Source: Myxococcaceae bacterium (GTDB lineage: Bacteria; Myxococcota; Myxococcia; Myxococcales; Myxococcaceae). Taken from it: 48,622 nucleotides of DNA. The notes beneath the pieces were generated by a model. It searched no databases. It saw nothing but the letters and a program-made list of their open reading frames with translations, and was not told the origin of the DNA. The stretch spans positions 1 through 48,622 of the forward strand of contig JAFGNZ010000297.1 of assembly GCA_016926755.1 (NCBI GenBank), written 5' to 3'. Below, one piece after another: positions 43,357-45,552 of this stretch (position 1 is its first letter; each line of letters opens with the position of its first letter). Made by a program: the position numbers and the translations under genes.

Positions 43357-44505
43357 ATGAGCCCCCCTCCCCCTCCCGCGAGCCCGAATCCTGATCTGCG
43401 CCTGGTCCCCGTTGAGATTGCCCCCGAGACGTTCTGGGTCGGCAAGCGCGAGCCCGGCGGCATCTTCTACGCCAACCCGTACCTGCGGCGCTTCCGCGGC
43501 GCGGATCCCAAGACGCAGAAGCAGACCGAGTTCAACCTGTTGATCGATCCCGGCTCCAGCAGCGACTTCTCCACCATCCACACCAAGGTGACGTCGCTCA
43601 TCGGCGGGCTGGAGCGCCTGTCGGCGGTCTTCATCAACCACCAGGATCCGGACGTCGGCTCGTCGGCGGCCATCCTCTCGGCGCGCTACGCGCCTCGGGC
43701 CGGCATCGTCTGCTCGGAGGACACCTGGCGGCTCATCGTCCACTTCAACCTGCCGCGCAACCGCTTCATCGCCACGGAGAAGTTCGCCCAGGGCCTGAAC
43801 GTGCCCACCGGGCACCGCCTGCTGCCGGTGCCCTCTCCCTTCTGCCACTTCCGCGGCGCGGTGATGCTCTATGATCCGCAGACGCGCGTGCTCTTCACGG
43901 GGGACCTGTTCGGGGGCCTGACCGAGGCGAACGCCCAGGGGCTGTGGGCCCAGGAGTCCGACTGGGCGGGCATCCGCGCCTTCCACCAGATCTACATGCC
44001 GGTGAACGCGGCGCTCGCGCGAGCAGTCGCCGCCATCCGCAAGCTCGAGCCGGCCGTGGAGGTCATCGCTCCCCAGCACGGGCGCGTCGTCCGCGGGGCG
44101 CTCGTGCAGCAGTTCCTGGAGCGCATGGAGCGGCTGCAGGTGGGCCTGGACATCATGGACGAGGCCCAGGACCGCACCCACCTGCAGGCATGGAACTCGG
44201 TGGTGGACCGGGTGCTGACGCTGGCGCGCGGCTACCTGGGCACCTCCGTGGAGGCCAAGCTCGGCACCAGCCAGGATCTCGCGGATACGGCCTCCTTCGA
44301 TGGCAAGCGCCTGAAGGTGAACCGGATGGGCAAGTGGACCCTGGAGCACGTGGTGGATCTGCTGTGCCAGGGCGAGCCGCCGGAGATCTCCGGTCCCATC
44401 CTCGTCGAGGCCACGAGCGCCGCCGCGGAGTACAACCTGCCCACGCCCCACCTGGACATCGAGGGGAACGGGGCGCCTGCCCAGGTGTCGCTGTTCAACA
44501 ACTGA
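43357..44505 (+). CDS. ODP/flavodiiron-like MBL-fold di-iron protein
   Basis: A 382-residue soluble protein. The MBL domain follows flavodiiron proteins: FWVGKREPGGIFYANPYL, LLIDPGSSSDF, then NHQDPDV (H95, D97, D99), H164, D183 after exactly 18 residues (TGDLFGG), and H241 (IAPQHG). These are the expected di-iron ligands, except that the second His of HxExDH is Val100. Flavodiiron proteins carry a flavodoxin domain next; here about 120 different residues follow (ERLQVGLDIMDEAQDR...), so it resembles oxygen-sensing ODP proteins rather than an NO/O2 reductase. The stop is 21 bases before a Ser/Thr kinase gene, with GAGGAG between, so the two are one operon. Oxygen or iron sensing is inference from the family. 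Confidence 0.78.
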   Translation: MSPPPPPASPNPDLRLVPVEIAPETFWVGKREPGGIFYANPYLRRFRGADPKTQKQTEFNLLIDPGSSSDFSTIHTKVTSLIGGLERLSAVFINHQDPDVGSSAAILSARYAPRAGIVCSEDTWRLIVHFNLPRNRFIATEKFAQGLNVPTGHRLLPVPSPFCHFRGAVMLYDPQTRVLFTGDLFGGLTEANAQGLWAQESDWAGIRAFHQIYMPVNAALARAVAAIRKLEPAVEVIAPQHGRVVRGALVQQFLERMERLQVGLDIMDEAQDRTHLQAWNSVVDRVLTLARGYLGTSVEAKLGTSQDLADTASFDGKRLKVNRMGKWTLEHVVDLLCQGEPPEISGPILVEATSAAAEYNLPTPHLDIEGNGAPAQVSLFNN

Positions 44506-44526
44506 GGCGCGGCCGAGGAGGAGCGT

Positions 44527-45552
44527 GTGCGGGGCAAGGACGAAGACGCGACCGGAGTGAGCTACCTGGGTACGGGGGAGGCCTCGCCCCTGCGTCCCCA
44601 GGCCCGCACCCCTTCGGGGACGCTGATCCAGGGCATGGTGGAGCCCGAGCCCTCCGGCGCTCCCACCGTGCGCGGGCTGGTGCCCGGGCAGGTCCTCTCC
44701 GGGCGCTACCGCGTGGAGCGGTGGCTGGGGGCCGGTGGCAGCGCGACGGTGTACGCCGTCACGGACCTCAAAACGGGGACGCAGGTGGCGCTCAAGCTGC
44801 TGACGGCGCCGGGGCATGACGCGGCGCTCGTGGCCCGCTTCCGCCAGGAGCTCGAGCACGCGCGGGTGCTCGACCACCCCAACATCCTGCACATGTCCGA
44901 GCTGGGGATGGACGGCGAGCGCCACTTCCTCATCGTGGAGCTGCTCCACGGGATGGATCTGCGGCACCTGCTGCAGTCCCGGCGCCCCACCCTCACCGAG
45001 TCCCTGCGCTGGCTCACCCACGCGGCGTGCGCGCTGGAGCACGCGCATGAGCACGGCGTGCTCCACCGGGACGTGAAGGCCGGCAACCTCTTCATCACCC
45101 ACACCGGGGTGCTCAAGCTGATGGACTTCGGGCTCGCCAAGAGCGAGCACGTGGCGGGCATCACGGCGCAGGGCGCGATCTTCGGCACGCCCGAGTACAT
45201 GGCGCCGGAGCAGGTGATGGGGACCGGCGTCTCGCCCGCCACGGACCTGTATTCGCTGGGAGTGGTGGCCTACGAGCTGCTCACCGGCCAGCTCCCCTTC
45301 CGCCACCCCCAGCCCGTGCCGCTGATGTTCCTGCACGTGCAGCAGCCGCCCGTGCCGCCGCGCACCCTCAGCCCTCAGGTGCCAGAGCCCTTCGAGAGCG
45401 TCGTCCTCAAGCTGCTCGCCAAGCAGCCCGAGGCGCGCTACCCGAGCGCGGGGGCGCTGCGCTCGGCGCTCCGGGAGCTCTGGCCGCTGGTGCTGCCGAG
45501 CGCGCCCAAGCTCCGCCCCGCGCTCACCAGCCCTCGGCTCCAGCACGTGTGA
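44527..45552 (+). CDS. Soluble Ser/Thr protein kinase, operon partner of the ODP-like protein
   Basis: A 341-residue kinase without a membrane helix. The N-terminal 55 residues are a flexible Ser/Pro/Gly-rich leader. The domain has glycine loop LGAGGSATVYAV, ALKLL lysine, an HRDVKAGN catalytic loop, DFGLAK and GTPEYMAPEQ, all intact, so it should be active on Ser/Thr. The C-terminus ends soon after the domain with no PASTA or other sensor, meaning that sensing must come from a partner; the ODP-like protein 21 bases upstream is the obvious candidate. The start is a GTG after GAGGAG; the first ATG comes 37 codons later, before the kinase domain. Downstream is a stem-loop region. Confidence 0.88.
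   Translation: MRGKDEDATGVSYLGTGEASPLRPQARTPSGTLIQGMVEPEPSGAPTVRGLVPGQVLSGRYRVERWLGAGGSATVYAVTDLKTGTQVALKLLTAPGHDAALVARFRQELEHARVLDHPNILHMSELGMDGERHFLIVELLHGMDLRHLLQSRRPTLTESLRWLTHAACALEHAHEHGVLHRDVKAGNLFITHTGVLKLMDFGLAKSEHVAGITAQGAIFGTPEYMAPEQVMGTGVSPATDLYSLGVVAYELLTGQLPFRHPQPVPLMFLHVQQPPVPPRTLSPQVPEPFESVVLKLLAKQPEARYPSAGALRSALRELWPLVLPSAPKLRPALTSPRLQHV

Follow-up and report, generated by a model that had tools for sequence, protein, structure and literature searches.

A di-iron ODP protein and a Hanks-type Ser/Thr kinase encoded side by side or fused in Myxococcota: a kinase probably controlled by oxygen or iron

In the window analysed here (the whole 48,622-nucleotide stretch of Myxococcaceae DNA), the gene of an ODP-family protein ends just ahead of the gene of a Ser/Thr kinase on the same strand, which raises the question of whether the two are mere neighbours or form a unit in which a di-iron protein controls a eukaryote-like kinase. 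The first gene (43357..44505, + strand) encodes a long-form ODP protein of 382 aa and the second (44527..45552, +) a kinase of 341 aa with a GTG start, the 21-bp spacer between them (44506..44526, +) containing a Shine-Dalgarno-like GAGGAGG ahead of this start codon. A divergent nucleotidase-like gene, assigned from its ORF and Pfam, lies upstream (41171-43204, -), and just downstream of the kinase is a convergent ORF of 337 aa (45798-46811, -), for which no Pfam or NCBIfam match was obtained at E 0.01. Because the flanking genes are divergent upstream and convergent downstream, the ODP and kinase genes look, from their arrangement, like a two-gene unit; a promoter and terminator scan of positions 43000-46000 found none.

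The first protein matches PF19583 with 169.6 bits against a curated cut-off of 27.2 (E 9.2e-50), and Pfam finds in its 382 residues the ODP domain and the general metallo-beta-lactamase (MBL) model and nothing else, so that the absence of a flavodoxin domain, noted in a previous sequence-only reading of this locus, was upheld. Among solved structures it is most similar to two ODP sequences, 6qrq (E 6e-26) and 6qnm (E 3e-24), which by their entry titles come from T. maritima and T. denticola; the ODPs of Treponema denticola (6qnm) and Thermotoga maritima (6qwo) are thereby represented, 6qrq and 6r9n being entries of the same two sequences. The AlphaFold model of the protein (pLDDT 88.5) places the ODP/MBL domain at approximately residues 13-267, with a low-confidence linker at 266-271, and can be superposed on 6qwo with Z 30.6 (rmsd 2.1, 238 residues aligned) and on 6r9n, a peroxy di-iron entry, with Z 28.6 (rmsd 2.2, 223 aligned).

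All six di-iron ligand positions are filled (H95, D97, D99, H164, D183 and H241), and each of them, together with V100, is found where it had been placed before. The canonical ligand motif of flavodiiron proteins is HxExDH, and its second histidine had been described as replaced by valine; the valine is indeed there (codons 43639..43656, +, for H95-Q-D97-P-D99-V100) but no ligand is lost, because both solved ODPs read HQDPDV as aligned to the window protein, making Val100 the family's own form of the motif. Among the 123 distinct ODP relatives that score at least 300 bits with a profile built in this analysis, none departs from these six ligands, and V100 is just as invariant there as D97 and D99. 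With flavodiiron proteins (FDP/ROO/NorV/FprA) the window protein shares the MBL di-iron fold (Z 26-29), but their C-terminal flavodoxin domain is absent from it, H-Q-D-P-D-V stands in place of HxExDH and no electron-delivery module is seen, whereas with the T. denticola and T. maritima ODPs it has in common PF19583, HQDPDV and the other aligned ligands, the fold (Z 27-31) and the lack of flavodoxin. Judged by both its sequence and its predicted structure, it is an ODP and not a decayed flavodiiron protein.

Unlike the solved ODPs, the window protein has an extra C-terminal domain of ~110 residues, which in the predicted structure consists of helices and a small hairpin at residues ~273-358 (44173..44430, +). 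It had been called a novel 120-residue C-terminus, which is correct in so far as it has no Pfam family (24 members scanned) but not in the sense of being unique to this gene, since the C-terminal ~110 residues, although weakly conserved, are common to long-form relatives including those of Calditrichota and Geobacteraceae (36 sequences). The Pfam matches that did appear, the best being Gag_p24_C (2e-5, in one of the 24), were each confined to one or two of the 24 members, carried unrelated names and were rejected as chance; a profile search of the PDB gave as its best match 2lxf, an uncharacterised protein of 121 aa, at E 0.0034, with all others at E 0.4 or worse. Since the domain is common to long forms and its profile matched ODP genes only (six of six matches in four genomes), it is, at the level of sequence, a mark of the long-form ODP subfamily and not private to one gene.

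In the second protein, the Pkinase domain covers residues 61-308 (E 1.5e-46) and the other five of its six Pfam matches are kinase-like models on the same stretch; Pfam detects no sensor domain and there is no transmembrane-like stretch (maximum KD19 hydrophobicity 1.02). Every one of the 87 distinct ODP-linked kinases retains the core residues K, E, HRDxKxxN and DFG (63 of 63 adjacent and 24 of 24 fused), the exceptions beyond this core being one fused kinase in which the Glu of APE is Gln and one in which the activation-segment Thr is Ser. By its residues the window protein is a Hanks-type Ser/Thr kinase with an intact catalytic set, which agrees with its earlier description as an intact soluble kinase without a sensor domain, 21 bp downstream. 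A second Ser/Thr kinase domain (24799-25629, -) is present elsewhere in the window, within an 822-aa open frame, and is 31% identical to the ODP-linked kinase.

As the genome of the window contains 155 kinase matches, a single neighbouring kinase means little, and conserved adjacency had been set beforehand as one of the tests of the pairing. In a census of 195 genomes of the window's phylum, of which 103 contain PF19583 and 71 were assigned the long form by score (155-177 bits; long-form fragments on three contigs of genome G031 were left out of the 71), a same-strand downstream kinase was found in 63 of the 71 (12 plus 51), in the Myxococcaceae/Archangiaceae group, its domain starting 156-379 bp past the ODP ORF. 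Of the remaining eight, one (L155) is truncated by a contig end 143 bp beyond the ODP gene, and seven show no kinase in the stretch examined (L120-L126). Plain synteny could also account for neighbouring kinases, but the pair is kept in every one of the 17 close loci that are 11 kb or longer (drawn from 22 adjacent loci, four shorter ones and L062 being left out), and their flanks of ~4-6 kb, compared with three window genes, contain none of these (MFS, nucleotidase-like and downstream ORF). No kinase was found in 30 loci with an ODP match below 300 bits, a weak and mixed control made up of short ODPs, FDP-type proteins, the three contig-end long-form fragments of G031 and locus L196, mostly with ~1.5 kb of flank. 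One record titled Comamonas sp. KCTC 72670 (L032) contains a Myxococcus-type locus with an ODP 84% and a kinase 74% identical to those of the window, and is possibly mislabelled.

Beyond this group the two proteins are found fused in one ORF. A second phylum-level sample, of 377 genomes around Minicystis, includes 23 in which a long-form ODP was detected with an E value no higher than 1e-40, and in 16 of these the kinase domain is located N-terminal to the ODP in one open frame; in Polyangiaceae, Lujinxingia and further lineages, kinase, ODP and C-terminal domain make up one polypeptide. Both kinase and ODP were confirmed by Pfam in four of four fused ORFs scanned (L056, L057, L070 and L084), and a set of 65 loci, which overlaps with both censuses, is divided into 22 with an adjacent kinase, 16 fused and 27 with neither, this last class including a locus cut by a contig end (L034) and two short forms (L088 and L089). 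The conserved unit and the one-ORF fusions argue against chance neighbourhood and lend strong, if indirect, support to the partnership of an ODP-type sensor with a eukaryote-like kinase that had been proposed earlier (adjacency in 63/71, fusion in 16/23), the fusions being stronger evidence than that proposal had to build on. Structure prediction of a fused protein gave no confident packing of the kinase against the ODP domain (pTM 0.46; linker pLDDT <50). In the alignment, three fused ORFs (L070, L078 and L084) can be read as having a Cys-rich start resembling a small zinc ribbon ahead of the kinase.

Some long-form ODPs are found without a kinase: in seven of the 71 genomes of the first census and seven of the 23 of the second sample, the stretch examined shows none, either next to the ODP gene or within it, and every Calditrichota and Geobacteraceae locus of the 65-locus set falls into the class with neither arrangement, which indicates that the ODP also functions by itself or in combination with other partners. 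Ten neighbouring or N-terminal ORFs from eight kinase-free loci, picked by hand, were scanned; five of them point to sensing or signalling, and the other five, comprising an FAD oxidoreductase, an OmpW porin and three ORFs without a family, have no such link. In Trichlorobacter thiogenes (L080:3812-7071, +) an HD-domain-hemerythrin gene, a hemerythrin gene and a long-form ODP lie in a row. Genes for a PAS histidine kinase and a response regulator are found near one Calditrichota ODP, and another adjoins a V4R match too weak to reach its cut-off. Hemerythrin and a short-form ODP, two di-iron modules, occupy one ORF in a genome of the window's phylum (L094:1396-2976, -), and an ORF of the Calditrichota genome G201 (L196:1123-2868, -; 232 bits) carries, besides a receiver domain and a stretch weakly matching DUF4388, an ODP domain whose six ligand positions are all altered; it may be a metal-free pseudo-ODP response regulator. 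These arrangements suggest an ODP domain that serves as a module for different outputs, the Ser/Thr kinase being the sole recurrent one among those counted.

Whether the kinase was recruited once or several times was approached through similarity ranks and trees. Among the matches of the Minicystis fused kinase in the window's genome the window kinase ranks 48th, and the Minicystis fused kinase is not among the Minicystis matches listed for the window kinase (150 of 392 candidates scored); these ranks first suggested independent recruitment. When all ODP-linked kinases were held as one clade, the AU test gave p 0.104 (109 rows) and 0.0515 (52 rows), and when the Myxococcaceae and Polyangiaceae kinases were held as one clade, against a background cut by hand to 32 kinases, it gave p 0.567, the tree holding this clade being slightly better. 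In view of AU values of p 0.05-0.57, independent recruitment is not claimed. For the ODP tree, the 126 distinct ODPs were reduced by thinning out 52 of the 63 adjacent ones and dropping 12 of the 74 left, giving 62 rows. Two of these 12 were the sole copies of their sequences, and the tree therefore lacks one kinase-free protein (L188, identical to L053) and one fused protein (L223, which is the ODP of the L063 fusion but carries a kinase-free label because its locus is cut). Kinase-linked proteins occur in several clades of this tree with kinase-free ones between them, and the fused label needs four changes, at least three of which are forced by the starred branches, on a tree built by a quick method that has several long branches and carries a long-branch warning. 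The kinase domains form separate groups matching the ODP clades, and an ancient kinase link followed by splitting, loss and divergence is possible.

What, then, might the two proteins do together? We think it rather more probable than an even chance, from the analysis as a whole, that the two genes constitute one signalling module in which the long-form ODP sets the activity of its partner Ser/Thr kinase according to its oxygen (or iron or NO) state; put in terms of the kinase, this enzyme is probably controlled by oxygen or iron. The ODP would bind a di-iron pair in its MBL fold, would change state with oxygen, or with iron or NO, and this state would then set the activity of the kinase. In bacteria of the Myxococcaceae type this would require contact between two separately translated proteins, while in Polyangiaceae and several other lineages the contact would be made inside one polypeptide, in the order kinase, flexible linker, ODP and C-terminal domain, the C-terminal helical domain being a likely transmitter or docking part in either case. 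That oxygen is the signal, and that it passes from the ODP to the kinase, is proposed because of the precedent of the T. denticola ODP, described in the excerpted text of PMC7666581 as an oxygen sensor coupled genetically to a CheA-modulating receptor.

The signal could also flow the other way, with the ODP as a di-iron enzyme or O2/NO scavenger that is phosphorylated and controlled by the kinase. We regard this as unlikely: the fold and ligands of the ODP protein are near those of the flavodiiron O2/NO reductases, and both operon and fusion would fit an enzyme and its regulator as well as a sensor and its output, but the protein has no flavodoxin domain to deliver electrons, its motif is in the ODP form with the three residues invariant throughout the 123 relatives, the kinase possesses no sensor domain of its own, and the T. 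denticola ODP, as characterised in the excerpt of PMC7666581, is a sensor acting on a chemotaxis kinase system. A low probability is likewise given to the ODP sensing iron or NO and not oxygen, in which case the kinase of the module would respond to iron or NO. In favour of this, Fe[II] is named besides oxygen in the title of the T. denticola ODP paper, as cited in PMC7666581, and NO reductases have the same fold. Against this reading, the long-form ODP of T. thiogenes adjoins hemerythrin genes, which suggests O2, although such evidence is weak.

PqsE, an MBL protein that works partly by binding RhlR, offers another analogy, under which the ODP would be a hydrolase or chaperone-like protein supporting the kinase with no gas sensing. 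PqsE is among the fold matches of the model (Z 20-21), below ODP and FDP structures (Z 26-31), yet by sequence (E 6e-26) as well as by Z the window protein is far closer to ODP, and it has the ligands of a di-iron ODP; we consider this reading very improbable. That the pair is mere neighbourhood in a kinase-rich genome, as its 155 kinase matches and the genomes keeping an ODP without a kinase might suggest, is hardly credible, being largely contradicted by the one-ORF fusions, by the 17 loci that keep the pair and have none of the three flanking window genes and, as a weak and mixed control, by the 30 kinase-free loci below 300 bits.

The preferred reading, in which the ODP sets the activity of its partner kinase, can be compared with known signalling systems. 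In T. denticola the partner of the ODP is a chemoreceptor modulating CheA, whereas here a Ser/Thr kinase takes that place, encoded next to the ODP or fused with it. At this locus the immediate neighbours of the ODP gene are the kinase and the divergent nucleotidase-like gene, and no receptor is among them; the window protein is placed in the ODP family but not assigned to the chemoreceptor system of the T. denticola type. ODP sensors working with chemoreceptors are known, and what is new here, in terms of genes and domains, is the wiring of ODPs to Hanks-type kinases. Redox-responsive Ser/Thr kinases have a bacterial example in a thiol-regulated cyanobacterial kinase, which we take to be SpkB. 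It is placed in oxidative stress by a title cited in PMC6213207, and as far as that title goes it depends on thiol chemistry, in contrast with the metal sensor domain proposed here. Hemerythrin-domain oxygen/redox sensors, to the extent that they are covered in the excerpt of PMC9388753, are likewise non-haem di-iron O2-binding signalling modules, but differ in fold and ligands, and the output here is a Hanks-type kinase. A search for the word "lactamase" in PMC6213207, PMC2887360, PMC11841059 and PMC13401364 found no occurrence. In the open-licence literature searched, a scope that most subscription journals fall outside, we found no report of the ODP-kinase pair and no experimental work on any kinase-linked ODP member.

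To our knowledge, myxobacterial Ser/Thr kinases are very many and the signals of most of them are unknown. The ODP-kinase pair gives one group of these kinases a concrete candidate signal and a metal site that can be tested. In its broadest form, to which we assign a little less than an even chance, the finding would mean that soluble Ser/Thr kinases sensing oxygen through a non-haem di-iron site form a widespread class in Myxococcota. A long-form ODP equipped with a transmitter domain would have been linked to Hanks kinases repeatedly, by way of operons as well as fusions, and eukaryote-like phosphorylation networks would thereby have acquired the O2 chemistry known from the chemotaxis sensors of anaerobes. 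In the natural fusions, the dependence of kinase activity on O2 could be measured directly on a single polypeptide chain and, if this reading is true, di-iron O2 sensing would extend from chemotaxis to eukaryote-like phosphorylation.
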